Assembly: GCA_020719045.1 (NCBI GenBank)
Contig: DYQY01000019.1
Coordinates: 1,651 to 28,012, forward strand
Direction: 5' to 3'
Length of the DNA: 26,362 nucleotides
From: Candidatus Termititenax sp.
GTDB taxonomy: Bacteria > Margulisbacteria > Riflemargulisbacteria > GWF2-35-9 > DYQY01
The position numbers were made by a program, and so were the translations under genes. A model generated the notes under the pieces. The model did no database searches. It saw only the letters and a list, made by a program, of their open reading frames with translations, and was not told where the DNA came from. Of the stretch, positions 3,392-26,308 are shown in pieces. Position 1 is the stretch's first letter, and every line of letters starts with the position of its first letter.

Positions 3392-3643
3392 GGTCTGATG
3401 TTCTTAATCCATAGTAGTCATCAATAATTATTAAGTTATCAATAAAGGTTTTATTGGCTTCGAAGTCTTCAGGGAGTAGAGGGAAATTGTAGCTTTTGTC
3501 ATAAGGTCTTTCTTTATCACCAATAATGTTGTCATCTAATATAACAGCTCTTTTGCCGAATTCAGTTAATTCATGTGAAATAAATTTTTTCCACCAGTTG
3601 ATTGTACACCACCTAATATGGTTTTATTAGAAATAAACTGATA
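3357..3643 (-). pseudogene. Remnant of a P-loop-like protein gene, frameshifted and truncated
   Basis: This minus-strand stretch lies between two plus-strand genes and has no start codon. From about 3623 down to a stop at 3357-3359 there is an 80-codon open frame with protein-like composition (GKRAVILDDNIIGDKERPYD, then a stretch ending IIIDDYYGLRTSDLK). Just upstream, in another frame, TILGGVQSTGGK reads like a beta strand plus a Walker A loop. The two frames meet at an A6 run near 3585-3590, as expected after a one-base slip. The last codons run antisense into the 3' end of the 5'-nucleotidase gene, so the original C-terminus is probably gone. A P-loop kinase is my best guess at the ancestor; the family is not identified. 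Confidence 0.4.
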
Positions 3644-3647
3644 TTAT
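3642..3647 (+). promoter_or_regulatory. -10 box of leaderless acyltransferase gene
   Basis: TATTAT ends 6 bases before the ATG at 3654. Transcription should start at or next to that ATG, giving a leaderless mRNA. There is no Shine-Dalgarno sequence upstream of the start. Confidence 0.55.
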
Positions 3648-3653
3648 TTTTAT

Positions 3654-4511
3654 ATGCAAAATATTAGAACCGGTAAAAGAATGTCAGGTATATCATATAG
3701 GAAAATCTCTATTGCTAGTTGGTCTCATCCAAAAGATCCAAGTATTTATTGTCAGTTAGAAGTTGAGACTTCAAATGCCTTGAAGTATATAGAGGAAATC
3801 AATAAAAAAAATAATAATAAAGAAATAACACTTACTCATTTTGTGGTTAAAATATTAGGTGAATGTTTTTATAAATATAATGTTTTAAATTTAGTGTTGA
3901 TTAGAAATAAGTTGTTTCTTAGGAAAGAAACAAATGTTTTTGTTTCAACATTACTGAGGACTAAGAAAGGTAAAGATCTTTCAGGAGTATCTGTGAAAGA
4001 TGTTCCAAATCTTAACTTAGAGCAGATAGCAGATGTTGTTGGAAAACAGATTGAGATACTAAGAAAGTCTAAGGAAAGCGAATTAGAAGGGTTTCAATCA
4101 ATAGTTAAATGGATTCCCTCTTTGTTTTTAGGAATAGTATATAAAATTATAGATTTTGTTATTTATACGTTAAATTTATCTCCAAGATTATTTGGGTTAC
4201 CTTCTGATCCTATTGGTTCAGTAATTGTAACAAACATAGGTTCATTAGGCTTAGAGAATGCCTTTGTTCCATTATCTCCGTACACAAGATGTCCACTTAT
4301 TGTGGCAATAGGAAAGACAAAAAAGAAACCAGTTGTAGAAAATGATATAGTAGTTCCCAAGGATATAACTTCTATTAATTTCACTTTAGATCATCGTTAT
4401 GCAGATGGCGCTGATGCAGGATTATTTCTGCATTACTTTAAGAAGATATTCGAAAACCCAGCAAACTATTCTGGAGTTTTTTTTAAAGAAGAAAAAGATT
4501 CGAAGATTTAA
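3654..4511 (+). CDS. Stand-alone 2-oxoacid dehydrogenase E2-type acyltransferase domain
   Basis: The protein is a 285-residue catalytic domain of the E2 acyltransferase / chloramphenicol acetyltransferase fold. The active-site signature DHRYADGA is present near the C-terminus, with His247 and Asp251 in the usual HxxxDG spacing. The preceding segment SVIVTNIGSLGLENAF is the typical strand before the catalytic loop. No lipoyl or E1/E3-binding domain is present, and there are no pyruvate dehydrogenase genes nearby, so it is probably not part of a classical 2-oxoacid dehydrogenase complex. Its acyl acceptor is unknown. A hydrophobic stretch near residues 150-175 (SLFLGIVYKIIDFVIYTL) may be an insertion that contacts the membrane. 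The stop abuts the stop of the convergent guaB gene with no spacer. Met10 (3681) is an alternative start. Confidence 0.8.
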   Translation: MQNIRTGKRMSGISYRKISIASWSHPKDPSIYCQLEVETSNALKYIEEINKKNNNKEITLTHFVVKILGECFYKYNVLNLVLIRNKLFLRKETNVFVSTLLRTKKGKDLSGVSVKDVPNLNLEQIADVVGKQIEILRKSKESELEGFQSIVKWIPSLFLGIVYKIIDFVIYTLNLSPRLFGLPSDPIGSVIVTNIGSLGLENAFVPLSPYTRCPLIVAIGKTKKKPVVENDIVVPKDITSINFTLDHRYADGADAGLFLHYFKKIFENPANYSGVFFKEEKDSKI

Positions 4512-6017
4512 TTAGGTATATTCTTTATCTTTAAGGATAACATCATGAGCTCCGCCTTCAATAATGCTTGTAGCAGAGACTAACGTTAGTCTAGCTGTGT
4601 TTTTAAGTTCCTCAATAGTTTTTGAACCACAGCTACACATTGTAGATTTGATTTTTGCAAGTGTGATGTCTAAAGTATCTTTAAGTTTGCCAGCATAAGG
4701 CACATAACTATCTACGCCCTCTTCGAATTTAAGGTATCCGCCTTTTTCTCCCATTTCATATCTTTCCCAGTTTTTTGCTCTATTTGAGCCTTCGCCCCAA
4801 TATTCTTTAACAAAGTTTTTTCCAAGCCTGATAGTTTTGTTAGGGCTTTCATCAAACCTAGCAAAGTATCTTCCCATCATAATAAAGTCAGCCCCCATCG
4901 CAAGTGCTAGGATAGTATGATAATCATGAACTATTCCCCCGTCAGAACAGATAGGAACATAAATGCCTGTTTCTCTAAAATATTCGTCTCTAGCCTTAGC
5001 TACTTCAATAATCGCAGTTGCTTGACCACGACCAATTCCTTTTTGCTCTCTAGTGATACAGATGGATCCACCACCAATGCCAACTTTTACAAAGTCTGCA
5101 CCAGCTTTTACTAGATAGAGAAAACCTTCTTTGTCTACAACATTGCCAGCACCAACTTTAGCTGATTCTCCGAAAGTTGATTTTATATACTCTAAAGTAT
5201 CTTTCTGCCATTCAGAGTATCCATCAGAAGAATCAATACAAAGAATGTCTGCTCCAGCCTCAAGCAATGCGGGAACTCTTTCCTTATAGTCTTTAGTGTT
5301 AATTCCAGCTCCGACTATCAGTCTTTTTTCGCTGTCTAGTAATTCATATGGATGTTCCTTGTGTTCATCATAGTCTTTTCTGAAGACTAGGTTTCTTAAG
5401 TGCCCTGTTTCATTAACAATAGGTAGACAATTAATCTTATGTTCCCAGAGTAAATCGTTAGCTGCGGTAAGTGATATTCCTTTTGTCCCTATTACAAGTG
5501 AATCAATAGGAGTCATAAACTCAGAAACTTTGGTCTCTAAAGATGTTCTGCTAACTCTATAGTCTTTGCTGGTTACAATTCCCATTAGTTTGCCTTTTGG
5601 TAACCCATCATCAGTTACTGGCATAGTTGAATGACCTGTTTTTTTCTTTAACTCAAGCACATCAGCAAGAGTGTCAGTCGGTTTAAGATTGGTTGTGCTA
5701 GTGACAAATCCTGCTTTATATTTTTTTACTTTCTTCACCATCTCAACCTGAGAGGCAATTGTTTGAGATTGGAATATAAAGGAAATCCCCCCACATCTAG
5801 CAAGTGCAATTCCTAATGAATCATTAGAAACTGATTGCATGATTGCAGAAGCAAATGGAATGTTAAGTTTTAATGCTGGTTGTTCAACGCCCTTTTTGAA
5901 GCTTACTAGCGGAGTATATAAGGTTATTTTGTCTGGCGTACAATCTTTGGTCGTTAAATTAGGAACAAGTAGATACTCATTAAAGGTTCTGGATACTTCT
6001 TCATAGATATGTGTCAT
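4512..6017 (-). CDS. guaB: IMP dehydrogenase
   Basis: Catalyses the NAD-dependent oxidation of IMP to XMP, the committed step of GMP synthesis, in the cytoplasm. The 501-residue length is normal. The N-terminal part of the TIM barrel carries PLVSF and [10 protein letters not shown]. Two CBS repeats follow at about residues 95-225 ([30 protein letters not shown]). The barrel resumes with [13 protein letters not shown] and KVGAGNVV. The catalytic loop [18 protein letters not shown] has the nucleophile Cys320. SDGGI and [12 protein letters not shown] bind the phosphate, and [10 protein letters not shown] is in the flap. The SICITREQ wording differs slightly from the common SICTTR. AGAGGAG lies 6 bases before the ATG. 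The upstream region 6018-6102 is shared with the divergent cupin gene and contains a symmetrical ATATAATATA element at 6041-6050. Confidence 0.96.
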
Positions 6018-6102
6018 AAGTAACTCCTCTATAAGTTGGTATATAATATATCACGAAGAAGCATAGGGTTAAAGAAAAAGATGAATATGCTATAATAAAT
6101 GT
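6018..6102. promoter_or_regulatory. Divergent guaB / cupin promoter region
   Basis: The 85-base region holds TATAAT at 6091-6096 on the plus strand, ending 6 bases before the cupin ATG at 6103, which predicts a leaderless mRNA. ATATAATATA at 6041-6050 can act as a -10 box on either strand. On the minus strand it would give guaB a leader of about 20 bases carrying the AGAGGAG ribosome binding site. No convincing -35 box was seen on either strand. Confidence 0.5.
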
Positions 6103-6393
6103 ATGAATAGTGGTGTTGTTATGAATAATCTTATTGAAATATCTAAGGTAACTTTAGCAGAGGCTGAAGCGAGAGGTATTTTAAAATGGAGCATTTGGGA
6201 GAAAGAGGTTGGTGATTTCATCTGGTATTATGAAGTTACTGAATTAAGTTATATCCTTGAGGGGGATATAGAAGTTACTCCTGATGGTGGAGAAACTTTT
6301 CATATAGTCCCTGGAGACTTGGTTGTTTTTAAAGCTGGTTTAAGTTGCAAGTGGAGAGTTAATAAGCCAGTAAAAAAACATTATAGTTTTTAA
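6103..6393 (+). CDS. Small cupin (DUF861 / EutQ-like)
   Basis: A 96-residue single-domain cupin of the Cupin_3 (DUF861) type. The signature runs from WSIWEKEVGDFIWYYEVTE through SYILEGDIEVTPDGGETFHI and VPGDLVVFKAGLSCKWRV to the C-terminal KKHYSF. The usual two-His metal motif is absent, as is common in this subfamily, so the role may be small-molecule binding or an uncharacterised activity. I chose the ATG at 6103 because of the -10 box 6 bases upstream; ATG 6121 is an alternative in-frame start. The gene converges on the MBL-fold gene and their stop codons overlap by 3 bases at 6390-6393, so no terminator separates them. Confidence 0.85.
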   Translation: MNSGVVMNNLIEISKVTLAEAEARGILKWSIWEKEVGDFIWYYEVTELSYILEGDIEVTPDGGETFHIVPGDLVVFKAGLSCKWRVNKPVKKHYSF

Positions 6394-7199
6394 ATAGAGA
6401 ATTTTTCTCCAGTATATCCGTAGAATGCTTTTTCCTGAAATTTTGTCTTGATTTCATGAAAGGCTAATAGTCCTGTGCAATGGTTTGTTATAATTTTATT
6501 AAATCCTATTGTAGCCATTTTGCTGATTATTACTTCCCTTTTTATTTCGTCAGATGTTTTTAGATGAAGCCCACCGAAAACAATATTTATTGGAAGATTA
6601 AATATTGAAGAGGCGGTTAACATTATATTTGTTATTCCTCTGTGAGCACAGCCCGTAATGATATTTATCTGTTTGTTTTTGATGATTGCAATGAATATTT
6701 CATCTTCAAAAGTGTCAGGTGTAAGTTCACCATTCTCATCAATATTCATGTTATGGAAATTTGTTAGATCGTTATCATAGATGTGGGTATTGGTTATAAG
6801 ATGAATATTCTCATAAATCTCAGTATTGGTTGTTATCATCGTTGCTTTTTGTTTAATTGTTTTTTTCATGTCTAAAGGAATTCCAATGTACTTATTAATA
6901 TTAAGTTTGTTTTGTAATGCGTCTGGATGCATGTAAATATTAGCTGTTTTGTTTTTTTCTAAGAATGTTTTAAGTCCACTGGTGTGGTCATAGTGACCGT
7001 GACTAATAACTAGGTCTGTTACTTCATCAAGCTTTAATCCTAAGCGATGTGCGTTTTCTGCAAAAAGGTTACTTTGGCCTACATCCATTAATATTTTTTT
7101 ATCGCAGGTTTCAATTAGGACACTAAGGCCATGTTCTCCGTAAAAAGGTGAGCTTGGCGAGTAGTTATCAATAATCGTAGTGATATAAATATTGTTCAT
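6390..7199 (-). CDS. MBL-fold metallo-hydrolase (COG1237 type)
   Basis: A metallo-beta-lactamase-fold hydrolase of about 269 residues, resembling the COG1237 group that includes archaeal proteins linked to methanopterin synthesis. The metal-binding motif HGHYDH is at His67-His72, with Asp40 in LMDVGQ, His in GCAHRG and His in NHCTG completing the usual ligand set. GGLHL follows the third ligand. The substrate is unknown. I place the start at ATG 7199 rather than the upstream ATG at 7223. A TATTAT -10 box at 7206-7211 ends 6 bases before 7199, and the region upstream of 7199 would be promoter. Only 18 bases separate it from the divergent YkgJ-type gene. Confidence 0.88.
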   Translation of the reverse strand: MNNIYITTIIDNYSPSSPFYGEHGLSVLIETCDKKILMDVGQSNLFAENAHRLGLKLDEVTDLVISHGHYDHTSGLKTFLEKNKTANIYMHPDALQNKLNINKYIGIPLDMKKTIKQKATMITTNTEIYENIHLITNTHIYDNDLTNFHNMNIDENGELTPDTFEDEIFIAIIKNKQINIITGCAHRGITNIMLTASSIFNLPINIVFGGLHLKTSDEIKREVIISKMATIGFNKIITNHCTGLLAFHEIKTKFQEKAFYGYTGEKFSI

Positions 7200-7204
7200 T
7201 AGGA

Positions 7205-7211
7205 TATAATA
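7205..7211. promoter_or_regulatory. Symmetrical -10 element serving two divergent leaderless genes
   Basis: TATAATA reads TATAAT on the plus strand (7205-7210), 7 bases before ATG 7218. On the minus strand it reads TATTAT (7211-7206), 6 bases before ATG 7199. Both start codons sit where transcription would begin. The whole space between the two genes is 18 bases, so neither gene has room for a leader or a separate promoter. Confidence 0.6.
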
Positions 7212-7217
7212 GCATGT

Positions 7218-7700
7218 ATGCAAGCTAAAAGTGATATTGTGTCTTCAAAATTAAGAATTCTTGTTGATTGCTCAAAGTGTGAGCAATGCTGTAAGTTTAA
7301 TTTTAATATAGGTGAGAAGTTTGCTTACGAAGATTTGCCATTAAATGGTTTTCCTCAAGAGCTATGTGATGTTATTTTGGAAAAAGCTGATGACCAGTAT
7401 CTTATCCCAGAACAATGTAAATATTATGATGGCAAGTGCCAAATATTTGATAAGGACGAGAGACCAATATTTTGTAACTTGTTTCCTGTTATGGTTGCGA
7501 TGAGTAGCAGAGGCAGAGTGAATGTTTATGTCGATAAGAATTGTCCTGAGTGGAATAAAGTTCAGAAGATGTTTGATAATAAGGAATATGCAAATATTTT
7601 TTTTCAGGACGTAGTTGAGTTAATTGAAAACAACAAATTCCCTTTAGTTTTTAGAAAGGAATATGAGGAGCTTGGGTACAAGTTAAGGAAGCTAATTTGA
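7218..7700 (+). CDS. YkgJ-family CxxCC cluster protein
   Basis: A 160-residue protein of the YkgJ family (zinc- or iron-chelating domain, PF03692 type). The N-terminal signature is CSKCEQCC (Cys18, 21, 24, 25). The distal part is CKYYDGKC, then IFDKDERPIFCNLFP, and a further Cys lies in KNCPEW. These eight or so Cys residues probably hold an Fe-S cluster or zinc. Family function is unsettled; some members are linked to Fe-S oxidoreductase or modification chemistry. There is no signal peptide, so it is probably cytoplasmic. The start at 7218 is set by the -10 box. An overlapping out-of-frame ATG occurs at 7214. A second YkgJ-type protein is encoded at 20791-21357. Confidence 0.87.
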   Translation: MQAKSDIVSSKLRILVDCSKCEQCCKFNFNIGEKFAYEDLPLNGFPQELCDVILEKADDQYLIPEQCKYYDGKCQIFDKDERPIFCNLFPVMVAMSSRGRVNVYVDKNCPEWNKVQKMFDNKEYANIFFQDVVELIENNKFPLVFRKEYEELGYKLRKLI

Positions 7701-7727
7701 TTTATTGTCTAAGATATCATAAGTCGT

Positions 7728-7733
7728 TATAAT
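7728..7733 (+). promoter_or_regulatory. Promoter of leaderless folD operon
   Basis: TATAAT ends 6 bases before the folD ATG at 7740. A plausible -35 box, TTGTCT at 7705-7710, lies 17 bases upstream of it. No ribosome binding site is present. Confidence 0.6.
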
Positions 7734-7739
7734 AAATTT

Positions 7740-8600
7740 ATGCGAAATTACGAAGATAAGATTATTTCTGGGAAAATTATTTCTCAGCAGATTAAAGATG
7801 AGGTTAAGGAAGAAGTTGCTTCTTTGAAAGAAAAGGGTCTTTACTCTCATTTGGCAGTTGTTTTATTAGGAGATGATCCTTCTTCACAAGTGTATGTCAG
7901 AAATAAAGAACTTGGTTGTGAGTATTGTGGGATAGAGTCTACGGTTATAAGGCAAAGTAAAGACATTACAGAAAAGGAATTATTACAGATAGTTAAGGGC
8001 TTAAACAAAGATAAGAAAGTTCATGGAATACTTGTTCAGATGCCAATGCCAGAGCATATTAGTAAAGAGAAAGTTATTTTAGCAATAGATCCAATGAAAG
8101 ACGTGGACGGGTTTCACCCTTATAATGTAGGTCAATTATTGTATGGTAGTTCTGATGTTTTGCTTCCATGTACTCCTTCTGGAATTATGGAATTACTTGA
8201 TAGGTCGGATATTGCAATAGCTGGTAAGAATGTGGTCGTAGTTGGTAGAAGCAATATAGTTGGTAAACCAGTGTTTCATATGCTACTTGAAAGAAATGCA
8301 ACAGTGACTATCTGTCACTCGAAAACAAAAGATCTTGTTGGTGTAACTAAGCAAGCTGATATTTTAGTCGTAGCAATTGGAAAAGCGAATATGATAACTG
8401 GCGAACATGTTAAAGAAGGCGCTGTAGTTATAGATGTAGGAGTTAATAGGGTTAATGATAAATTGTATGGAGATGTGGAATTTGAAACAGTTGCTCCATT
8501 AGCTTCAAGGATTACACCTGTTCCAGGTGGTGTTGGTCCAATGACAATAGCTATGTTAATGAAAAATACAGTAAAAGCAGCCTTGAATAGTGAGAAGTGA
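7740..8600 (+). CDS. folD: FolD, methylenetetrahydrofolate dehydrogenase / cyclohydrolase
   Basis: A bifunctional enzyme interconverting 5,10-methylene-THF and 10-formyl-THF, supplying one-carbon units for purine and formyl-Met synthesis in the cytoplasm. All family hallmarks are present in 286 residues: YVRNKELGCE with catalytic Lys56, GILVQMPMPEH, DPMKDVDGFHP, LPCTPSGIMELL, the nucleotide-binding VVVGRSNIVGKP, and PVPGGVGPMTIAMLM near the C-terminus. The length is normal. It starts an apparent operon with the MGMT-like and COG3650-like genes: 22 bases to the first, then 1 base to the next. The transcript is predicted to be leaderless. Confidence 0.97.
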   Translation: MRNYEDKIISGKIISQQIKDEVKEEVASLKEKGLYSHLAVVLLGDDPSSQVYVRNKELGCEYCGIESTVIRQSKDITEKELLQIVKGLNKDKKVHGILVQMPMPEHISKEKVILAIDPMKDVDGFHPYNVGQLLYGSSDVLLPCTPSGIMELLDRSDIAIAGKNVVVVGRSNIVGKPVFHMLLERNATVTICHSKTKDLVGVTKQADILVVAIGKANMITGEHVKEGAVVIDVGVNRVNDKLYGDVEFETVAPLASRITPVPGGVGPMTIAMLMKNTVKAALNSEK

Positions 8601-8622
8601 GTAGTGAATAGAAAATTCTGGA

Positions 8623-8931
8623 ATGCAAGAAGAGTTAAGAACATTTCTGAAGATTTATGATTTTGTAAAAGCTATCCCATCTGGGAGAGTCGTTTCATGT
8701 GGAGTTGTTTCAAAAGTAGTTAATACTTCACCTAGAGTTATTGGTTTTGCCTTGCATAGGAATCCAGACCAGCAGAATATTTCTTGTCATAGGGTTGTTT
8801 TTCAAGACGGTTCACTAGCAAAAGGTTTTGTTTTTGGTGGAGAATTAAAACAACGTGAAATTCTTGAAAAAGAAGGCATAAGGTTTGATAATGAAGGTAG
8901 CGTTTTGAAGGATTGTTTCTGGGAGGGGTAA
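8623..8931 (+). CDS. MGMT-family DNA alkyl repair protein (short form)
   Basis: A 102-residue protein consisting only of the C-terminal DNA-binding domain of O6-alkylguanine-DNA alkyltransferases. The helix-turn-helix with arginine finger SPRVIGFALHRNP is present, followed by the active-site loop NISCHRVV, with the reactive Cys at residue 55. The usual Pro before Cys is Ser here. Short homologues with Trp in place of Cys (ATL proteins) cannot transfer alkyl groups, but this one keeps Cys-His-Arg and may be active. The C-terminal RREILEKEGI-like segment (KQREILEKEGI) is typical. It probably repairs or flags O6-alkylguanine. It lies between folD and a lipoprotein-like gene, and its stop overlaps the next gene's ribosome binding site. 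Confidence 0.88.
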   Translation: MQEELRTFLKIYDFVKAIPSGRVVSCGVVSKVVNTSPRVIGFALHRNPDQQNISCHRVVFQDGSLAKGFVFGGELKQREILEKEGIRFDNEGSVLKDCFWEG

Positions 8932-8932
8932 T

Positions 8933-9709
8933 TTGAAGTTTTTTTCAAGAGCAAAAGAGGTTTGGTCTAAACTAATGAAGATTAGAGATCAGAAACTGGA
9001 CCGACAGACACTGATATATTTACTAATAACCGCATTTATAGTCCTTTTTATAATTTTATGTGTCTTGTTGATTGTTGGTGGATGTCAATCAAAGAAGCTT
9101 AAAGAAGAAGCATTAAAGCCAGAGATTGTTAATGTGCGTGGTTATCTTTATCATGGTCCAGAGGTAAGTGCCTTTAGAAAGTGTGATGAAAATCAAGAGT
9201 ATATGGTTACTGGGGATATTGGTGTTAATGTGTGGAAGATTTATACTGATTTAGTGCCAGAACCATATTTGCCAGTTTATGTTGAGATGAAGGCGCAGAT
9301 TGTTAAAAATGATGACAACGAAAAGAGAACTGATTACGTTGGATATGTTGTTTTAAAAGAGCTGTATCACATGTCTTATGAATCGTTTGGATGCGAACTA
9401 CCAAAAAACTATAATTATTTAATTCATGGCAACGAACCGTCTTGGAAAATTATTATTGATGATAGTAGGGGAGTTTTTATGCAGGTTGACGGATCGGAGG
9501 AGATTTTTGCGGCTTATTCTAAGCCAAGCGTAATAGACAATGGAATTCAATATAAGCTGATGAGCGGAAGTAGTCCAATTATTATTAAGATTCGCAAAGC
9601 TGACACATACGACTCAATGTCTGGTGCTTATTATGGGTATTCCTCTTATGTTAGTTTTAAGGGGAAAGCATATTACGGTGAAGCCCTGCCTGGGAGACCA
9701 CTGTTTTAG
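8933..9709 (+). CDS. Membrane-anchored COG3650-like protein
   Basis: A 258-residue protein with a charged cytoplasmic N-terminus of about 25 residues, one hydrophobic segment at 27-49, and a possible lipobox VGGC with Cys51. The long N-tail is unusual for a lipoprotein signal, so a plain membrane anchor is equally likely. The extracytoplasmic part contains GNEPSWKI and DSMSGAYYGYSSYVSFKG, which resemble the uncharacterised COG3650 domain (GNEPxW ... DxMSGxxY ... GxxYxGC). The terminal Cys of that pattern appears replaced by Glu in YYGEA. The start is TTG at 8933, supported by GGGAGGGG at 8921-8928. Its last 53 bases overlap the convergent methyltransferase gene. The function is unknown. Confidence 0.8.
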   Translation: MKFFSRAKEVWSKLMKIRDQKLDRQTLIYLLITAFIVLFIILCVLLIVGGCQSKKLKEEALKPEIVNVRGYLYHGPEVSAFRKCDENQEYMVTGDIGVNVWKIYTDLVPEPYLPVYVEMKAQIVKNDDNEKRTDYVGYVVLKELYHMSYESFGCELPKNYNYLIHGNEPSWKIIIDDSRGVFMQVDGSEEIFAAYSKPSVIDNGIQYKLMSGSSPIIIKIRKADTYDSMSGAYYGYSSYVSFKGKAYYGEALPGRPLF

Positions 9710-10340
9710 AAGCTTTTATTCCAACAAAACTGCCAATGCCGTAACCTTCAATTGGTTGCTGGATGCTTTGTGAATTATTTTCATTGTCGAACAGTGTTTG
9801 CTTAATTTTTTTTATTTCAAAGCTATTTTGAGTAAGCATTTTTATGATTTCTTCACTACTATAAAAATATGCATTTTGGTAATACTTATTGGTGTCTTTT
9901 GTTTGAAGATAGCGTTTTCCAATAGTGCTTTCTTTGTTAACAAATCCAATGATTAAATGTCCATTATTTCTTAGAACACGATGAGCTTCTTGTAGCGCAA
10001 CGTTGGGGTTATCAATAAAACAGATAGTTGTTACCATTAACAGGCTATTGAAAGAATTATCATTAAAGGGAAGGCTTTCTGCTGTTGCTTGATGCACAGT
10101 AATTCCTCTGGCTTTAGCAATAGCGCCCATTTCGATAGATGGCTCTATTCCTTCCTTTATTCCTAATGCCTGAGCAAACCTTCCTGTTCCAACTCCTATT
10201 TCAAGGCAATCAGTTGTTTTTGTTATTAATGATTGTATTAAAATTAGTTCTGATAAAAAGGTAGCTTCATGCTTATTAAACCAGTTATCATAATCTTCTG
10301 CGTAGTTATCAAAAACATTAGAAGAGGTTTTCTTTCCCAT
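9657..10340 (-). CDS. Class I SAM-dependent methyltransferase
   Basis: A 227-residue methyltransferase of the Methyltransf_11 type. Motif I CLEIGVGTGRFA is at about residues 45-56, followed by acidic EPS (GIEPSIEM), a post-I motif ATAESLPFNDNSFN, and HRVLRNNGHLIIGFV (motif III region). The substrate cannot be told from sequence. I chose ATG 10340 (MGKKTSS) because the longer reading from 10400 lies wholly inside the J-domain gene; GGAAAGAG precedes the ATG weakly. It overlaps the upstream J-domain gene by 23 bases, suggesting translational coupling as the last gene of the DUF134 operon. Its 3' end overlaps the convergent membrane-protein gene by 53 bases. Confidence 0.87.
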   Translation of the reverse strand: MGKKTSSNVFDNYAEDYDNWFNKHEATFLSELILIQSLITKTTDCLEIGVGTGRFAQALGIKEGIEPSIEMGAIAKARGITVHQATAESLPFNDNSFNSLLMVTTICFIDNPNVALQEAHRVLRNNGHLIIGFVNKESTIGKRYLQTKDTNKYYQNAYFYSSEEIIKMLTQNSFEIKKIKQTLFDNENNSQSIQQPIEGYGIGSFVGIKASKTVVSQAGLHRNMLSP

Positions 10341-13688: not shown

Positions 13689-13694
13689 TATAAT
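13689..13694 (+). promoter_or_regulatory. -10 box of the leaderless binding-protein / kinase operon
   Basis: TATAAT ends 6 bases before the ATG at 13701. No ribosome binding site and no clear -35 box are present. The region is shared with the divergent DUF134 promoter. Confidence 0.6.
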
Positions 13695-17571: not shown

Positions 17572-17839
17572 ATGAAAAAAGTTGCTGTTTGTAGATGATG
17601 AAGTAAATATTTTAAATGCCTTAAGGCGGATGCTTTATTCTTACAAAGATGAATGGGAGATGGCTTTTCTTGATAGTGGGGCTAAGGCACTAGCCTACCT
17701 TGCGAAGAATGAGGTAGATTTAATAGTTGCAGATATGAGAATGCCTGAAATGAGCGGAGCGGAGCTTTTCTGGACATTACCCTACTTAAAACAGAATAAA
17801 ATCGAAAATATATTTATTGTTAAAGTTCAGGGAGAATAA
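17572..17839 (+). pseudogene. Response regulator remnant, frameshifted and truncated
   Basis: AAGGA precedes an ATG at 17572, but that frame stops after 8 codons. Removing one A from the A6 run at 17575-17580 would give MKKLLFVDDEVNILNALRRML, a textbook receiver start. The receiver continues in the other frame through LDSGAKALAYL and the phosphoacceptor segment VADMRMPEMSGAELF. After about 17771 similarity ends and a short unrelated tail leads to a stop at 17839. The alpha4-beta5 part of the receiver and any output domain are missing. An in-frame TTG at 17582 could start an 85-residue stub. It lies 17 bases after the histidine kinase and was evidently its partner. It is unlikely to work as a regulator in this form. 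Confidence 0.8.
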
Positions 17840-19177: not shown

Positions 19178-19184
19178 TTTATAG

Positions 19185-19190
19185 ATTGTA
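19185..19190 (-). promoter_or_regulatory. -10 box of leaderless CDF transporter gene
   Basis: On the minus strand TACAAT ends 7 bases before the ATG at 19177. No Shine-Dalgarno sequence is present. The remaining intergenic stretch to 19385 holds another TATAAT at 19328-19333 on the plus strand, possibly for the next gene; I see nothing else in it. Confidence 0.45.
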
Positions 19191-19385
19191 ACATATTGGT
19201 TATTAAAATATTAGGTAAGCAATACTGTATTTTAAGCATTGATTGGGGCTAAATTCATGTGTCATTAAGTAGCTGGTTACTAAAATGTTGATTTTTCTGA
19301 ATTATTTTAAATATTGTGCAAGAAGTTTATAATATTCTACGTTATATTTATATAAGAAAAGAATTCTTTTAAAGGGGGATTAGTT

Positions 19386-19739: not shown

Positions 19740-19785
19740 TAGATGGTAATAGCTAGTTAAAAGTCCAATTATCTTTCTAATATGA

Positions 19786-19807
19786 TATACTTTTTAGTAT
19801 GAAATAA
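19786..19807 (+). promoter_or_regulatory. Promoter and minimal leaderless ORF before the nitroreductase
   Basis: TATACT at 19786-19791 ends 7 bases before an ATG at 19799, the same geometry as the leaderless genes of this window. That ATG is followed by one Lys codon and TAA. The real gene starts 25 bases further on at a TTG with AGGAGG. The two-codon ORF could tune translation or be accidental. Confidence 0.35.
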
Positions 19808-19832
19808 TATATTTTCATGCAGGAGGTATTTA

Positions 19833-20273
19833 TTGTTAGATCTTTTATATAACAGACGCTCAATTAGGAAATATAAGTCTGCAGAAATAGAGCAAGATAA
19901 AATCGAGAAGCTTATCCAGTCAGCGCTTTTGGCTCCATCCTCAAGAAACAGAAAGCCAGTAGAAATAATAGTTGTTGTTATGGCCGATAGTGCTGTTTCT
20001 GATATGTGTACTCAGGATTCTTCGATTGTGGCTACCATTTTGCAGTTAACAGCTGAATCTTTGGGGTTAGGTTCTTGTTGGGTTCAGTTAAGAGGCAGAA
20101 AGACCAGTGCAGGTGTTCCTTCTGAAGAGTATTTAGCTGATTTGTTAAATATCCCGTCAAATTTTAGCGTTGAAGCTATTATTGCAATAGGTTATAAAGA
20201 TGAAACGCCAACCAGCTATACAAAAGATAGTTTAGACTATAAAAAGGTTCATTTTAATAAGTATTCAGTTTAA
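19833..20273 (+). CDS. Nitroreductase-family flavoprotein, apparently shortened
   Basis: Resembles the NAD(P)H:FMN nitroreductase fold. Recognisable parts are LLYNRRSIRKYKSAEIEQDKIEKL with the FMN-phosphate RRSIR motif, APSSRNRKPVE, the dimer helix AATILQLTAESLGLGSCWVQ-like stretch (ATILQLTAESLGLGSCW), and VEAIIAIGYKDE, with a C-terminal YKKVHFNKYSV. Family members usually have about 170 residues; this one has 146. The gap lies after RKPVEIIVV: the strand IVV seems fused directly to VMADSAVSDM, so roughly 27 residues with the intervening helix are missing in frame. FMN binding may survive, but I would not assume activity. The start is TTG at 19833 with AGGAGG at 19821-19826. Confidence 0.85.
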   Translation: MLDLLYNRRSIRKYKSAEIEQDKIEKLIQSALLAPSSRNRKPVEIIVVVMADSAVSDMCTQDSSIVATILQLTAESLGLGSCWVQLRGRKTSAGVPSEEYLADLLNIPSNFSVEAIIAIGYKDETPTSYTKDSLDYKKVHFNKYSV

Positions 20274-20286
20274 GCAAAAATAACAA

Positions 20287-20318
20287 CAAAAAGACCTCAC
20301 TATTGTGAGGCCTTTTTG
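20287..20318. terminator. Bidirectional rho-independent terminator
   Basis: The arms AAAAAGACCTCAC and GTGAGGCCTTTTT surround the loop TATT, with one A/C mismatch. The A-run on one side and T-run on the other allow it to end the nitroreductase transcript (plus) and the RRM transcript (minus). Confidence 0.85.
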
Positions 20319-20349
20319 AATAATTCATTTTTTTGAAGATAAACGGTTT

Positions 20350-20592
20350 TTATTTTGGACGAGCTGCGTTAACTGTGATTGCTCTTCCTAGTAAATCTTT
20401 ACCATTTAATGCTGTGATAGCAGCTTTTGCTTCCTCAGCATCATCCATAGTTACGAAACCGAAACCTTTTGAACGATCCGTTTCTCTGTCTTTTACGATT
20501 TTAGCTTTAGCTACTTCACCGTATTCTGAGAACATCTCTTGAAGATCCTGTTCCTTTACTTCATATTTTAAATTTCCTACGTATATATCCAT
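20350..20592 (-). CDS. RRM-type RNA-binding protein (Rbp-like)
   Basis: An 80-residue protein that is a single RNA recognition motif. RNP2 is IYVGNL (residues 3-8) and RNP1 is KGFGFVTM (42-49), with aromatic Tyr4, Phe44 and Phe46 placed to stack on RNA bases. The Gly-rich tail found in many bacterial Rbp proteins is absent. It probably acts as an RNA chaperone or cold-stress protein in the cytoplasm. AAGGAG lies 5 bases before the ATG. About 100 bases upstream of the ATG are free of genes and could form a long leader; a minus-strand TATAAT is at 20732-20737. It is a close paralogue of the gene at 24438-24713, sharing DRETxRSKGFGFV. Confidence 0.93.
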   Translation of the reverse strand: MDIYVGNLKYEVKEQDLQEMFSEYGEVAKAKIVKDRETDRSKGFGFVTMDDAEEAKAAITALNGKDLLGRAITVNAARPK

Positions 20593-20790
20593 TTTTTCTC
20601 CTTTTACTTTTGATTTGATTAGTTTTGGGGATTGTTTTTGTGTCGTTGATACTTAACTTAACCATTTACTCCAAACCTAAATTTATAAGTGCAATCAAGA
20701 AAAATACTTGTGCATACTTATATCTCGTTAAATTATATACTTATATTTTTTAGGATGCAATATAATGAAATAAAATTAATAAGGAAAGAT

Positions 20791-21357
20791 ATGCGTGAAT
20801 TTGAGGTTAAGGTTGAGAAAATAAAAGAATTGTTAAGTAGTGCTGAACATGCAACAACAAAGTTTCAGAAAGTTTATAAGATAGGTTGTTTCTCTGGGTG
20901 TGGAAAATGTTGTTCAACTGAAAGCATAGAAGCTTCGAGTTTGGAGTTTTTGCCTTTAGCTGAGTATCTGTGGAAAAAGGGTGAAGCAGCAGAATTACTT
21001 GAGAAGTTGAAGGATGCTGACAGTTTAGAGAACTGTATTTTTTATATCCCTAATTGTAATGATAAGACAAAAGGTTTTTGTGCTGCTTATGAACACCGAG
21101 GACTAATATGTAGATTATTCGGGTTTTCATTACGTCAAAACAAGAACGGTATGAATGAAGTGATTACTTGTAAGGAAATTAAGGAGAAGTATTCTCTTTC
21201 TAATATAAGTTTTAAGGATGAAGAGCATGAGTTTAATATGTCAGATTATTATTTGCAATTAGCAGATATTGATTATAGCAGGGCGTTTAAGAGATATCCT
21301 GTTAATAAGGCTATAGCTGAAGCATTGAATGAGTATGCTCAAATGAACTCTTATTAG
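20791..21357 (+). CDS. YkgJ-family CxxCC cluster protein (second copy)
   Basis: A 188-residue YkgJ-type protein. The N-terminal Cys cluster is CFSGCGKCC (Cys33, 37, 40, 41), and further Cys occur in NCIFYIPNC, FCAAYEHRGLICRLFGF and ITCKEI. The RGLICRLFGF segment matches the family's distal RP-x-x-CRLFP-like motif. It probably carries an Fe-S or zinc site; the function is unproven. I prefer ATG 20791 with AGGA 5 bases upstream and TATAAT at 20761-20766. An in-frame ATG at 20755, 7 bases after TATATT (20742-20747), is a leaderless alternative that adds 12 residues. A longer frame begins at 20689 but would include the promoter. Confidence 0.82.
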   Translation: MREFEVKVEKIKELLSSAEHATTKFQKVYKIGCFSGCGKCCSTESIEASSLEFLPLAEYLWKKGEAAELLEKLKDADSLENCIFYIPNCNDKTKGFCAAYEHRGLICRLFGFSLRQNKNGMNEVITCKEIKEKYSLSNISFKDEEHEFNMSDYYLQLADIDYSRAFKRYPVNKAIAEALNEYAQMNSY

Positions 21358-21378
21358 GACAATAGTTTCTTATAAGGG

Positions 21379-21384
21379 TATAAT
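21379..21384 (+). promoter_or_regulatory. -10 box that fixes the rlmN start
   Basis: TATAAT overlaps the upstream ATG at 21383 and ends 7 bases before the next in-frame ATG at 21392. The first ATG can therefore not be on the transcript, and rlmN should start at 21392 on a leaderless mRNA. Confidence 0.55.
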
Positions 21385-21391
21385 GATTGGT

Positions 21392-22390
21392 ATGTTAAAA
21401 ATATTAGAATATAATTTTAAGGAATTGCAGAGCGAATTTGTTAAAAATGGATTTCCAGCATACAAAGCAAAGCAGGTATTTGAATGGATTTATCAGAAAG
21501 CAGTTACTGATTTTGTGAAAATGACTTCAATTTCTTTTGCGGATGCCAAGAAGCTGTCCGAGGTCTTTGCGCCAATTAATTTGGACTATGAAAGGACTAC
21601 TGGAAATACTTCAGTAAAATTTCTTCTTAATACTACTGATGACTTTGGAATAGAGTGCGTAGTAATCCCAAGCAAAAATGGTAATACACTTTGTGTATCT
21701 ACGCAGGTAGGGTGTGCGCTTAAGTGTGGATTTTGTGAAACAGGAAAGGGTGGATTTAAACGAGATTTAACATCAGCCGAGATAGTTTCTCAGTATTTAG
21801 TAGCACGAGCAGAAGGTTATGAGATTGATAGGATAGTTTATATGGGGATGGGTGAGCCACTTCTTAATCTGGATAATGTTCTTAAGGCGACAAGTATTTT
21901 GAACGAAGAAACTGGCGCGAACATTGGCATGAGACGTTTTACTGTATCTACAGCTGGAATTATTCCAGGGATAAAGAAGCTACTGGAAAAAGGTTTTAAG
22001 CTAAATTTGGCAGTGTCCCTACATGCCGCAAATGATGGACTAAGAACAAAGTTAATGCCAATAAATGAGAAGTATAGATTAAACGACCTTTTTGTGGTTT
22101 TGGCTGAATATAGGGAAGCTACAAGTCGTAGGATAACTTTAGAATATGTGTTATTAGATGGCGTTAATGATACTGATAGAGATATTGAGCAATTAGTTGC
22201 CTTAGTTAAAGGAACGGATTTTCATATTAATCTTATTCCATATAATACAACTTCTTCTAGTTTTAAGGCCTCAAAGAATATGGATAGATTTTTCGATAAA
22301 CTAGAAAAAGCTAAAGTTAATGTAACCAAGAGGAGAAGCGAGGGAGGCGACATAAGCGCTGCTTGTGGGATGTTGTTTGGGAAAAAGTGA
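21392..22390 (+). CDS. rlmN: 23S rRNA (adenine2503-C2)-methyltransferase RlmN
   Basis: A radical-SAM enzyme that methylates C2 of A2503 in 23S rRNA, and of A37 in some tRNAs, in the cytoplasm. The length is 332 residues. The N-terminal accessory domain contains FPAYKAKQVFEWIYQK. The [4Fe-4S]/SAM motif CALKCGFC has Cys108, Cys112 and Cys115. Further family motifs are YMGMGEPLLN, MRRFTVSTAGIIPGI, LAVSLHAAND, EYVLLDGVND and HINLIPYN. The C-terminal EGGDISAACGML carries the methyl-carrying Cys325. All catalytic residues are present. The stop overlaps the GTG start of the HAD-phosphatase gene by 4 bases (GTGA). Confidence 0.95.
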   Translation: MLKILEYNFKELQSEFVKNGFPAYKAKQVFEWIYQKAVTDFVKMTSISFADAKKLSEVFAPINLDYERTTGNTSVKFLLNTTDDFGIECVVIPSKNGNTLCVSTQVGCALKCGFCETGKGGFKRDLTSAEIVSQYLVARAEGYEIDRIVYMGMGEPLLNLDNVLKATSILNEETGANIGMRRFTVSTAGIIPGIKKLLEKGFKLNLAVSLHAANDGLRTKLMPINEKYRLNDLFVVLAEYREATSRRITLEYVLLDGVNDTDRDIEQLVALVKGTDFHINLIPYNTTSSSFKASKNMDRFFDKLEKAKVNVTKRRSEGGDISAACGMLFGKK

Positions 22391-23019
22391 TAAAAAATCT
22401 GGGTATTGCTTTCTTTGATATAGATGGCACTTTACACCTTGGTGACACAATTTGGGATATTATTCATAAAAAAAACGGTACATGGGAGAGCCATGGAAGA
22501 GTTTATTTAGAAAGATATCTAAATAAACAAATAAGCTTTGAGGAGTTTGCGTATCTAGATGTTGCTGCTTGGAAGGGTTTGCCTGAGTCTGCTGTTTTTG
22601 AAGCTGTAGATGAGTTTGAAGTTATTCCAGAAGCTAAGTTTCTTTTAACTGAGCTTAAGAGGTCAGGAGTAGCTGTCTATCTGGTAACAAATAGTTTGTC
22701 TCATGTAGCGAAGAGGATAGTTGCTGATTTTGGGTTAGATGGACATATTTCCAATGATTTGGTAGTTAAAGAGGGTCTTCTTACAGGAAAGCTTATTATT
22801 AATATTAAGTATCACGACAAAGGGAAATTTGTTAGGAAGATGTTAGATGATGGAAAGTTTAGAGTGTCTATGGCTATTGGTGATGGGGGTAACGATATTC
22901 CAATGTTAAATGAGGTAACTAATCCGATACTTTATAATCCAAAACAACGAGCTTTCCCTGACTATAAGGGATTTGTGGCTTATAGTTGGCAAGAGGTGCT
23001 TGGGCATGTAGGCTTTTAG
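22387..23019 (+). CDS. HAD-superfamily phosphatase (SerB-like type IB)
   Basis: A 210-residue cytoplasmic HAD hydrolase similar to phosphoserine phosphatase and related IB enzymes. Motif I FFDIDGTL has nucleophile Asp11 and acid/base Asp13. A helical C1 cap follows (IHKKNGTWESHGRVYLERYL ...). Motif II is VYLVTNS, motif III Lys is in HDKGKFVRK, and motif IV is AIGDGGNDIPML. The substrate cannot be read from sequence. I chose GTG at 22387, which overlaps the rlmN stop as GTGA and gives a start directly before the first beta strand; ATG 22363 would add 8 residues from within rlmN. A strong terminator follows at 23046-23073. Confidence 0.88.
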   Translation: MIKNLGIAFFDIDGTLHLGDTIWDIIHKKNGTWESHGRVYLERYLNKQISFEEFAYLDVAAWKGLPESAVFEAVDEFEVIPEAKFLLTELKRSGVAVYLVTNSLSHVAKRIVADFGLDGHISNDLVVKEGLLTGKLIINIKYHDKGKFVRKMLDDGKFRVSMAIGDGGNDIPMLNEVTNPILYNPKQRAFPDYKGFVAYSWQEVLGHVGF

Positions 23020-23045
23020 TTATTTGATGATGTCGATTTAATAAC

Positions 23046-23073
23046 AAAAAACCCCGGAACTCCGGGGTTTTTT
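23046..23073. terminator. Strong rho-independent terminator after rlmN operon
   Basis: The arms AAAAAACCCCGGA and TCCGGGGTTTTTT form a near-perfect GC-rich stem with a tiny loop and T6. It ends the rlmN-HAD transcript. Its symmetry also lets it end the minus-strand operon whose last gene stops at 23121. Confidence 0.92.
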
Positions 23074-23120
23074 GTTAGCTAATAATGTATACAAGTATGC
23101 AATTTTAATCTGCAGGAGAA

Positions 23121-23636
23121 TCATCTGGGTATAGTGGTTGAAGTATTGTCTTTTGCATTTGCAGTAGCTGCGGTTTTGTCTTTTTCATCATCTTTTGGTA
23201 CTGCTACAGCCTCTTGTGGTTCTACAGGTGGTGTAGGTTCTGCTTCATTTTCAGGTATTTGTGGTGCAATTTGTGGTATAGCTGGGGCTCCGGCTGCGGG
23301 TTGGTTTTCTGGATTGACTCGTTCATATGTAGGCGGAGTATCTAGTGAATGTGTTGGTGATGGGGAAGTTGAGCTATTTCCTCCTGGAGATGAAGAATTT
23401 GAGTCGCCTTTGTCATCTTTATCAAAAATATTTCCAGCTAGCCCGACACCTAAAAATAACCCCACCACTCCTAATCCTATAGGGCTTGAGAAAAGTAAGG
23501 CTGCTCCGCCAACTGCAACTGTCATGCATAAAGCCTCTTTTCCGCTTATTTTATCTGGGTTATCATCATCCATTCCAACTATTTTATTCATGCCATTAAC
23601 TGCTTTGTTAAGTATCCCTAGTACATTGAACTCCAT
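23121..23636 (-). CDS. Unrecognised protein with Gly-rich hydrophobic hairpin and Pro-rich tail
   Basis: A 171-residue protein in three parts. Residues 1-35 are polar and helical. Residues 36-70 are hydrophobic and Gly-rich (VAVGGAALLF, then PIGLGVVGLFLGVGLAG), fit for a membrane hairpin of two short helices around SSP. Residues 75-171 are a disordered tail rich in Pro, Ser, Ala and Glu (SSSPGGNSSTSPSPTHS; EPTPPVEPQEA). No cleavable signal or lipobox is present. The ribosome binding site GGGGGG lies 7 bases before the ATG, 13 bases after the upstream gene, so the two form an operon. A plus-strand frame through the same bases is its shadow. The function is unknown; a membrane-inserting or exported protein is a guess. 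Confidence 0.75.
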   Translation of the reverse strand: MEFNVLGILNKAVNGMNKIVGMDDDNPDKISGKEALCMTVAVGGAALLFSSPIGLGVVGLFLGVGLAGNIFDKDDKGDSNSSSPGGNSSTSPSPTHSLDTPPTYERVNPENQPAAGAPAIPQIAPQIPENEAEPTPPVEPQEAVAVPKDDEKDKTAATANAKDNTSTTIPR

Positions 23637-23649
23637 AATTATTCCCCCC

Positions 23650-24279
23650 TTATATTTTTTTGTTAAATTGGTTTATTGACCTGTCATCAAGATTATCTGA
23701 ATTCATCACTGTCATAGTGTTTTCGTAATGCTTTGCTAATTGTAGAATAAGTTTCTGATAGGCCTCACCAAAGGCGGAAACTATTTGTTCACTGGAGATT
23801 TTGTTTTGTAGTGGAATAACTTTTATTTTGCTTAGAACTGGGTCAGCTATTATCCCAATAAGGTTATTTGTGTCTGCGATTTTTATTCTATCTGTATTAA
23901 ATATTTGTGTAAGCTTAAGTATTTTACCAGAAAGCTTTCTTCTGGTGGTGTTTTTCCAATCCATTAGTCCGCTTTTTTTGATGTTTTCTTCAAAGTTTTC
24001 TTGTATCTGGATTGTCTTCTTTGCTCGAGCTCTAAGGTAGTTATTCATTAGGATATTAAGCTCATGGAGGATTACTGTCGGTCTATCTAGACTAATAATA
24101 TCACAAGAAACCAGTATTCCAGCGCCGTTCATTTTTATTAAAAGGCAATTACCTTTTAGTTCTATATTTTTTTCATTAAGCTCCTGTAAAGCTTTCATCA
24201 GTTCAGCGCCAAGATTAGCAACTGCTTTACGTTCCTCTAGTTCTTTTTCTTTTTTTTGTATTTCTTGTAGCGTTGGCAT
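23650..24279 (-). CDS. Unrecognised 209-residue cytoplasmic protein
   Basis: It begins with a coiled-coil-like segment (LQEIQKKEKELEERKA), followed by a mixed alpha/beta part (GNCLLIKMNGAGILVSCDIISLDRPTVILHELNILMNNY), a basic helix (RARAKKTIQIQENFEENIKKSG), and a C-terminal region with NLIGIIADPVLSKIKVIPLQNKI. I see no signal peptide, membrane segment or catalytic motif and recognise no family. The strong ribosome binding site GGGGGGA, 4 bases before the ATG, matches those of its operon partner at 23121 and the Ser-rich gene at 19386. It is the first gene of a two-gene operon; the pair may be a cytoplasmic partner and a membrane-hairpin protein, which is inference only. Confidence 0.75.
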   Translation of the reverse strand: MPTLQEIQKKEKELEERKAVANLGAELMKALQELNEKNIELKGNCLLIKMNGAGILVSCDIISLDRPTVILHELNILMNNYLRARAKKTIQIQENFEENIKKSGLMDWKNTTRRKLSGKILKLTQIFNTDRIKIADTNNLIGIIADPVLSKIKVIPLQNKISSEQIVSAFGEAYQKLILQLAKHYENTMTVMNSDNLDDRSINQFNKKI

Positions 24280-24400
24280 AGTTCCCCCTAAATATGGTTA
24301 TACCTATATTGTGCCCAATATTCTTGTGGTTAAACATAGTATTTGTTTCGGTGAGATATAAGAGTAATAAAGAGGATTTATGTTGTTTGGGTGTTAAATT

Positions 24401-24430
24401 AAAAAAGGGAACCATTAAGGTTCCCTTTTT
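24401..24430. terminator. Bidirectional rho-independent terminator after RRM gene
   Basis: The arms AAAAAAGGGAACC and GGTTCCCTTTTT enclose the loop ATTAA. It lies just 3' of the minus-strand RRM gene ending at 24438. The stretch 24280-24400 between it and the next gene holds the upstream region of the 23650-24279 operon; I see no gene in it. Confidence 0.88.
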
Positions 24431-24437
24431 GTTGTAA

Positions 24438-24713
24438 TTACCAACGATTGTTAGTAGGACGGTCTTCTTTAGGTTTAGCTAAAGATACCTTTAGGTCTCT
24501 ACCATTTAAATCTTTACCATTAAATGATTTGATAACTGCATTAGCTTCTTCTTCTGTGCTCATTTCAACGAAACCAAAACCTTTTGAACGATTTGTTTCT
24601 CTATCCATGATTACATTAGCAGAAACTACCTTTCCAGCTGCTGAAAATAATTCTGCGATAGAATCATTTGTTGCAGAAAAAGGAAGGTTTCCTATGTATA
24701 GTTTATTTTGCAT
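24438..24713 (-). CDS. RRM-type RNA-binding protein (Rbp-like, second copy)
   Basis: A 91-residue single RNA recognition motif. RNP2 is LYIGNL (residues 5-10) and RNP1 is KGFGFVEM (44-51), with Tyr6, Phe46 and Phe48 in RNA-contacting positions. A short basic/polar tail (AKPKEDRPTNNRW) follows instead of a Gly-rich domain. It is likely an RNA chaperone similar to the paralogue at 20350-20592. AAGGAG lies 6 bases before the ATG. A small perfect stem, CGCAC-ATA-GTGCG at 24753-24765, lies 40 bases upstream and may be an operator or a leader structure. Terminated by the hairpin at 24401-24430. Confidence 0.93.
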   Translation of the reverse strand: MQNKLYIGNLPFSATNDSIAELFSAAGKVVSANVIMDRETNRSKGFGFVEMSTEEEANAVIKSFNGKDLNGRDLKVSLAKPKEDRPTNNRW

Positions 24714-24752
24714 AATTTTCTCCTTTCTTAATAGTTAACAGACATTAGACTA

Positions 24753-24765
24753 CGCACATAGTGCG
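24753..24765. promoter_or_regulatory. Short perfect inverted repeat upstream of RRM gene
   Basis: CGCACATAGTGCG has 5-base perfect arms around ATA in otherwise very AT-rich DNA. It could bind a regulator or fold in the RRM leader. The rest of 24714-24922 holds no gene I can support; a 23-codon plus-strand frame at 24818-24889 is noted but not accepted. Confidence 0.3.
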
Positions 24766-24922
24766 GTAAAATTTAAAAGAATTAATTAGGGGGAAAATTT
24801 AAACAATCACAAGAACCATGTTAAAAATATCTATAACTAAATCTATTATTCTAAGTACTATCTTAGGTCAGTGTATAACTTATTTTTAATCTTGGCTAGT
24901 GTTATTTTAAATTAAGATTGTT

Positions 24923-25777
24923 TTATTCTTCCTTCTTAGTCTTAATAGGGAGGACTGAACCTCCAGCTAAATCGTTTATAACATTAATTAGTTCCATATT
25001 AGAAGGGATGATAATTTTAGAATTATTCTTTAAAGCTTCGCTTACTGTTTCAAGCTTCTTTAGAAGTTGAGCATTTCCTTTAAAGTACTTTTCAGCTGAC
25101 TCGTTTACTACTTTGATTGCTTCTCCGTCAGCTTCAGCTTTAAGCTTGATTGCTGTTGCGATACCTTCTGCCTTCTTTATCTCTGCACGTCTTTCACCAT
25201 CTGCTTTAGTCTCAATAGCTGTTGCCATATCCAGCGCTGCAATCTTTTCATTTTCGGCTTTAACAACCATATTCATTGCTTGCTGTACATCTTCAGGCGG
25301 TTCTATCCTTTGAAGTTCTACTCGTACAACCTTAATTCCCCATTTAACAACCTGTTTGTCTAAAATCAATTCAACTTGTTCATTAATAGCATCTCTATTT
25401 TCATTAGCTTCTGTGAGAGTCATTTTACCAATAACTGCTCTAAGAGTAGTTGTAGTAAGTGATGGAACTGCTGATTGAAAGTTTTGTACATTGTAAATAG
25501 CATCAGAGGGAGTAATGACCTTATAGTAAACCACCCCATCTACTTTTGCGTTTAGTTTATCTTTAGTAATTATAGATTGAGGCTCTATATCCACTCGTCG
25601 CTCAGTGACATTTATTATATACATATTTTGTATTAGTGGAATTATCCAGTTAAATCCAGATGATGCTGTTCTAGTGTATTTTCCTAAGAATTCTACTACA
25701 CCAAGTTCAGTTGGACGAACTATCCTAATACCATAAGCGATAAATATAGCGATTGGGATTAAAATGAATAAGTACAT
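24923..25777 (-). CDS. SPFH / Band 7 (stomatin-like) membrane protein
   Basis: A 284-residue slipin-type protein. One N-terminal membrane anchor (residues 2-17, LFILIPIAIFIAYGI) is followed by the SPFH domain: RPTELGVVEFLGKYTRTASSGFNWIIP, VTERRVDIEPQSIITKDKLNAKVDGVVYYKV, and TTTLRAVIGKMTLTEA. A helical, Ala/Glu-rich segment (AENEKIAALDMATAIETKADGERRAEI ...) and a C-terminal part with IIIPSNMELIN follow. Such proteins form large membrane-bound oligomers and organise microdomains or modulate membrane proteases. The usual NfeD partner is not adjacent. GGAGG lies 7 bases before the ATG. Confidence 0.94.
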   Translation of the reverse strand: MYLFILIPIAIFIAYGIRIVRPTELGVVEFLGKYTRTASSGFNWIIPLIQNMYIINVTERRVDIEPQSIITKDKLNAKVDGVVYYKVITPSDAIYNVQNFQSAVPSLTTTTLRAVIGKMTLTEANENRDAINEQVELILDKQVVKWGIKVVRVELQRIEPPEDVQQAMNMVVKAENEKIAALDMATAIETKADGERRAEIKKAEGIATAIKLKAEADGEAIKVVNESAEKYFKGNAQLLKKLETVSEALKNNSKIIIPSNMELINVINDLAGGSVLPIKTKKEE

Positions 25778-25878
25778 GATGTAACCTCCAGAATTTTATT
25801 ATTTATACCTTAACATAATATGAGGTAGCCATCAATCTGAGTTTGTTTGCATCTCTACTATTAATTATTAGGGTATTC

Positions 25879-25884
25879 TATAAT
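25879..25884 (+). promoter_or_regulatory. -10 box of leaderless release-factor-like gene
   Basis: TATAAT ends 7 bases before the ATG at 25892. No Shine-Dalgarno sequence or good -35 box is present. Confidence 0.55.
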
Positions 25885-25891
25885 TACTACT

Positions 25892-26308
25892 ATGCAAGAG
25901 CAATCAAGCGTTACGATTAATAAACTTAATAAGTTAAAATTGAGAATGGATTCTTTAGACATTAAAGAGGAAGATCTTGTGGAGAAGTTTGTGTTAGGTT
26001 CAGGTAGTGGTGGCCAGAAAGTGAATAAAACTTCCTCAACTGTGTATCTTAAACATCTTCCAAGCGGAGAAGAAGTTAAGTGTGGAGAGGAAAGGTCTAG
26101 AGCACTTAATCGATTTTTAGCTCGAAGAATATTATGCGATATTATTGAAGAAAAGATGTTAGGTAAAGAGTCTAAAATTCAGCAAGAGATAGAGAAGATA
26201 AGAAGACAGAAAAAAAGAAGATCAAGAAAAGCAAAAGAGAAAGTTCTTCAACATAAACATAAAACATCGGAAAAGAAACAAAACAGAAAACTTAAAGGTG
26301 ATGAGTAG
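25892..26308 (+). CDS. Release-factor-like ribosome rescue protein (RF-1 domain)
   Basis: A 138-residue protein with only the catalytic domain of class I release factors. The peptidyl-tRNA hydrolysis motif GSGSGGQKVNKT has GGQ at residues 40-42, followed by TVYLKHLPSGEEVKCGEERSRALNR, typical of this domain. The codon-recognition domains are absent, so it cannot read stop codons. The C-terminal 40 residues are a Lys/Arg-rich tail (RRQKKRRSRKAKEKV ...) of the type that enters the mRNA channel in ArfB (YaeJ) and the mitochondrial C12orf65 protein. It probably frees stalled ribosomes. No neighbour confirms this. A terminator follows at 26324-26352. Confidence 0.9.
   Translation: MQEQSSVTINKLNKLKLRMDSLDIKEEDLVEKFVLGSGSGGQKVNKTSSTVYLKHLPSGEEVKCGEERSRALNRFLARRILCDIIEEKMLGKESKIQQEIEKIRRQKKRRSRKAKEKVLQHKHKTSEKKQNRKLKGDE

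Follow-up and report, generated by a model that had tools for sequence, protein, structure and literature searches.

Leaderless initiation with a -10 box located 6-7 bases before the start codon is known in Deinococcus, Actinobacteria and Mycoplasma. Of the 953 bacterial genomes studied by Zheng et al. (2011), 207 contained TA-led genes, in which a TA-like -10 signal lies some 10 bp ahead of the start. In low-GC genomes this signal takes the TAtAAT form and is accompanied by a TG peak; only operon-proximal genes are leaderless, and the state of a gene changes between relatives (PMC3160421). In Deinococcus, a -10 motif located 6-7 bp before ORFs was described by Zhong et al. (2025) together with promoter evidence (PMC12340547). 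For M. tuberculosis, Cortes et al. (2013) mapped transcription start sites (TSSs) at start codons and reported a TANNNT -10 element (PMC3898074). A search of the literature on leaderless genes in candidate phyla revealed nothing directly relevant.

The window studied here (the whole analysed stretch of 26,362 nucleotides; contig C7:1651-28012) belongs to the 1.75 Mb genome of an uncultured bacterium (G000; 34% GC, 99% complete, 31 contigs). The first-pass annotation of the window had listed nine genes with a -10 box ending 6-7 bases before ATG and without a Shine-Dalgarno (SD) sequence, and had read them as a sign of widespread leaderless transcription. A rereading of the window confirmed each of the nine start codons and its box at exactly the distance that had been given (Table 1), and no AGGAG was found at the usual place upstream of any of the nine starts. 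The chance expectation for approximately 31 window genes and two spacings is about 0.8 boxes. The window is also richer in boxes than the genome (P 0.004 against a strict rate of 10.8%), which is to be expected, since it was picked for such boxes. Two of the nine starts, namely those at 7199 (minus strand) and 21392, are not the starts of the longest ORF. For the former gene, the longer ORF from TTG 7223 would start upstream of its own promoter, and in rlmN the in-frame upstream ATG 21383 falls within the -10 box of ATG 21392; the start annotation was thus corrected for rlmN and for the metallo-beta-lactamase-fold (MBL) gene. Note that a response-regulator-like ORF (window 17582-17839), found 3' of the sensor kinase gene, is short (85 aa) and has a TTG start, which comes right after a ATGAAAAAAG stretch in another frame. 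This ORF is possibly the product of a frameshift or an assembly error.

Table 1. Candidate -10 boxes of leaderless genes in the window, and examples of repeat arrays adjoining -10 boxes elsewhere in the genome
Feature	Position	Strand	Bases between box and start codon	Gene or remark
-10 box TATTAT	3642..3647	+	6 (ATG 3654)	2-oxoacid dehydrogenase acyltransferase-domain protein (Pfam)
-10 box TATAAT, TGC upstream (extended -10)	6091..6096	+	6 (ATG 6103)	EutQ-like cupin (Pfam)
-10 box TATTAT, extended TGC	7206..7211	-	6 (ATG 7199)	metallo-beta-lactamase-fold protein (Pfam)
-10 box TATAAT	7205..7210	+	7 (ATG 7218)	CxxCxxCC-domain protein (below Pfam cut-off)
-10 box TATAAT	7728..7733	+	6 (ATG 7740)	folD (Pfam FolD)
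-10 box TATAAT	13689..13694	+	6 (ATG 13701)	solute-binding protein (Pfam), first in unit with sensor kinase
-10 box TACAAT, TGT upstream (extended -10)	19185..19190	-	7 (ATG 19177)	cation efflux protein (Pfam)
-10 box TATAAT	21379..21384	+	7 (ATG 21392)	rlmN (Pfam RlmN)
-10 box TATAAT	25879..25884	+	7 (ATG 25892)	RF-1-domain, ArfB-like protein (Pfam)
Arrays adjoining -10 box (examples)	L045:3228-3277, L182:6142-6190, L195:17307-17351, L197:4429-4481, others			fixed register

The genome was scanned in stretches totalling 1.739 of 1.753 Mb, which were analysed piece by piece. A simple home-made gene caller that ignores upstream motifs was used; it called 1407 genes, 1344 of which had a usable upstream region. 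An exact TATAAT was found at a spacing of 6 bases in 43 of the 1344 genes and at a spacing of 7 bases in 24, against a mean of 3.5 at other distances (Poisson P of 2e-31 and 9e-13, respectively). For the strict -10 box, defined as TANNNT with no more than one mismatch to TATAAT, the corresponding numbers were 96 and 49 genes over a background of 16.8 per spacing, and the sharp peak was confined to these two spacings, with some boxes at 8. Thus, the sharp genome-wide peak at 6-7 bases that the first-pass annotation had proposed to look for was recovered with a gene caller blind to the box. The excess of strict boxes over background is approximately 110 genes, and about 34 of the 145 strict-box genes are expected by chance. 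A matrix search, which covers alternative ATGs, gave 166 matches against 25 in decoys, that is, about 140 genes above decoys, and this value may be somewhat high because the spacing-6 genes themselves had served to train the matrix. The number of leaderless genes in the genome was estimated at 110-140, and the word "widespread" means here about 8-11% of genes.

The 145 strict-box genes (spacing 6 or 7) were compared with the 1183 other genes, and several features were found to accompany the box. An SD motif was present in 1 of the 145 box genes versus 544 of the 1183 others. Box genes started with ATG in 143 cases, versus 1039 (88%) among the other genes, and a pyrimidine occupied position -1 in 114 of them (79%) versus 502 of the others (42%). 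A TTGACA element with at least 5 of 6 matches was located 16-18 bases from the -10 box in 20 box genes, versus 0-2 at other offsets, and a TTG peak was observed at positions -35 to -33; in addition, TGN (extended -10) preceded the box in 37 of the 145 genes. The box was found in 16-18% of first or well-separated genes versus 2.7% of tightly packed inner genes (near background), in agreement with the earlier statement that leaderless genes mostly stand first in operons. Along the genome, no significant clustering of leaderless genes was revealed (19 adjacent pairs versus 13.5 expected; shuffle maximum 24). Could the boxes have arisen by chance or from base composition? Words resembling TATAAT are frequent in DNA with 34% GC, and a strict box occurs in about 17 of the 1344 genes at each other spacing. 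However, the peak stands only at spacings 6-7 and is correlated with the -35 element, the -1 base, the ATG, the loss of the SD motif and the operon position. This explanation has a negligible probability and is refuted at the level of the set, although single genes may still carry a box by chance.

These features are very probably those of start-adjacent promoters, which would give leaderless mRNAs alongside an SD-led mode of initiation. The promoters would be of the ordinary housekeeping-sigma type, with the -10 box 6-7 bases before ATG. From the box spacing we infer that RNA polymerase would start at the first base of the start codon, give or take one base, and so produce a leaderless mRNA; ribosomes would then begin on the 5'-terminal AUG without SD pairing, probably as 70S ribosomes by analogy with E. 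coli. Internal operon genes and many others would use SD-led initiation on the ordinary ribosome. It is improbable that the promoters are real and transcription begins slightly before ATG, with leaders of 1-5 bases that make the mRNAs not truly leaderless. Spacing 7 and some cases of spacing 8 could put +1 one or two bases upstream, and the choice of a start site is often loose, but a spacing of 6 is the most frequent one, box genes begin almost only with ATG, and the pyrimidine that mostly precedes its A is the context typical of a start site. Leaders of 1-5 bases would function alike because they are too short to hold an SD sequence.

The coexistence of two initiation modes, also claimed in the first-pass annotation, was borne out: besides the SD motif in about 46% of non-box genes, the anti-SD sequence CCTCC is intact at the end of the 16S rRNA (CACCTCCTTT) in six relatives, among them the congener G001. 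The anti-SD sequence was read in relatives, and the G000 assembly contains no 16S gene. It does contain a gene for an S1-like protein that has four S1 domains. The intact 16S ends in relatives and the S1-like protein show that the SD-led mode is preserved alongside the leaderless one. In about 45-53% of G000 genes, both the strict box and the SD motif are missing; this half of the genes may reflect misplaced starts, coupling to the genes upstream or a third mode of initiation.

To evaluate conservation, approximately 394 kb of G001 was compared with the source genome, which gave 237 reciprocal best hits with a median protein identity of 80%. The box was kept at 6-8 bases in 19 of 22 G000 box genes with aligned starts, and the upstream DNA had often diverged. 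The folD box was found at 6-7 bases in the orthologues of G001 and of four of the five genomes of the sister family f2 (G002, G004, G005 and G006), and at about 9 bases in the fifth. It therefore spans two families of the order, in which the FolD proteins are only 55-60% identical. In the class member G007 and in most other genomes of the phylum, folD has SD-like or other leaders. The alignments also bear on whether the starts were misassigned, so that the box genes would be leadered genes with true starts 20-60 bases downstream and SD sites there. Simple gene callers do misplace starts, and a leader does precede the congener's orthologue of the 7218 gene. However, downstream in-frame starts with an SD motif are not commoner in box genes (3 of 145 versus 46 of 1183), and the proteins of congener orthologues align from the called Met, so this explanation is highly improbable.

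Across 56 genomes of 23 families of the phylum, TATAAT-N6-ATG was counted against TATAAT-N14-ATG, and an excess of the former (P < 0.01) was revealed in 35 of the 56 genomes, the counts being of raw patterns not filtered for true starts. The excess was strong in the families f4, f6, f7, f8, f18, f22 and f23 (strongest in f6, f4, f18 and f23) and absent in f3, f10, f12, f13, f14, f15 and f21. In a small gene-level sample of G007 (130 genes), the peak was absent, matching the pattern counts; a sample of G014 (147 genes) was too small for a firm figure. Judging by these patterns, the leaderless mode appears to occur in many, but not all, members of the phylum. A poorly studied phylum is thus added to the groups using leaderless genes, and it suits the study of their gain and loss because the excess is strong in some families and absent in others.

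Bacterial -10 sequences that are symmetric can promote transcription in both directions. The genes at 7199 (minus strand) and 7218 (plus strand) are divergent, and their start codons are separated by 18 bases (window 7200-7217). The two boxes share five of six bases (TATAATA/TATTATA). Five divergent pairs with strict boxes on both sides were found in G000, and in the next tightest of them the gap is 31 bases and the boxes are separate. G001 keeps the shared -10 core, and its MBL-fold gene again has TATTAT-N6-ATG; in its orthologue of the 7218 gene, 27 bases with AAGGAG lie between the box and the ATG. Either a loss of the leader in G000 or its gain in G001 would explain this difference, and no outgroup for the 7218 gene was found. 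The pair, with both genes predicted to be leaderless in G000 and only one of them in the congener, shows a step of SD-leader gain or loss on a fixed promoter. No directly relevant literature was found that links symmetric divergent promoters with leaderless genes.

Intergenic DNA of G000 was found to be enriched in degenerate 7-base arrays with the unit CTTTTNN; 8-base arrays (units AAATAAAC and NNNTGAAC) are fewer. Among 108 leaderless first genes, 15 had an upstream array of period 7 and 11 of period 8, whereas among 247 SD-led first genes there were 7 of each. An exact TATAAT was located at the 3' end of 19 of 64 noncoding arrays (C-rich orientation) and at the 5' end of 1 of 64, and in most of these 19, as judged from the list by eye, the C of the unit stands exactly three bases before TATAAT. 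Different arrays at orthologous promoters of G000 and G001 surround a constant TATAAT-N6-ATG: at the L045:3277 promoter, the array consists of octads in G000 and of octads plus heptads in G001, and at the L196:238 promoter the heptads of G000 correspond to octads in G001. The motif CTTTWNNCTTTATAAT was found in eight copies in G000 and six in G001, and each of the remaining 54 genomes has no more than two. This concentration makes the trait of arrays lying directly against the -10 box, which is frequent at leaderless promoters of G000 and G001, look genus-specific; the octad pattern used in a search across genomes was too loose to add much. In the window, the heptad array GAATAGTGAGAAGTGAGTAGTGAATAG (8585-8611) crosses the folD stop codon and encodes the last FolD residues. 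It is absent at the folD end in the congener, so that gene ends, too, can receive arrays.

Repeats of seven nucleotides have been described in other bacteria (PMC4679880, PMC4692102), and no report of a fixed array register at leaderless promoters was found in a brief literature search. It is conceivable, though rather unlikely, that arrays are installed and replaced in fixed register and serve as -35 substitutes or as sites for dedicated regulators, in an array-controlled leaderless class whose sole element conserved from species to species is TATAAT-N6-ATG. Alternatively, the arrays may be neutral expansions halting at the -10 box and not acting elements.

The shared -10 core and the array promoters are less ordinary than the leaderless mode itself. 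The genes described here resemble the TA-led genes in the -10 signal, the TAtAAT/TG form, operon-proximal placement and changes of state, although the groups listed by Zheng et al. (2011) do not obviously include the present phylum (PMC3160421). The geometry in Deinococcus-Thermus is identical, and there a GGAG ribosome-binding motif marks another set of genes; however, the box is TANNNT/TACACT in high-GC genomes and about one third of genes are involved, whereas here it is TATAAT and about one tenth (PMC12340547). M. tuberculosis is similar in having the -10 element 7-12 bases before a TSS at the start codon, here a predicted TSS, and a pyrimidine at -1 (PMC3898074). It differs in that its leaderless genes use ATG and GTG about as often as its leadered genes do and show no -35 element, whereas here ATG is nearly exclusive and a -35 element is detectable (PMC3898074). 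The leaderless mode in this genome is a known phenomenon, and every feature that could be compared with the described systems matches.
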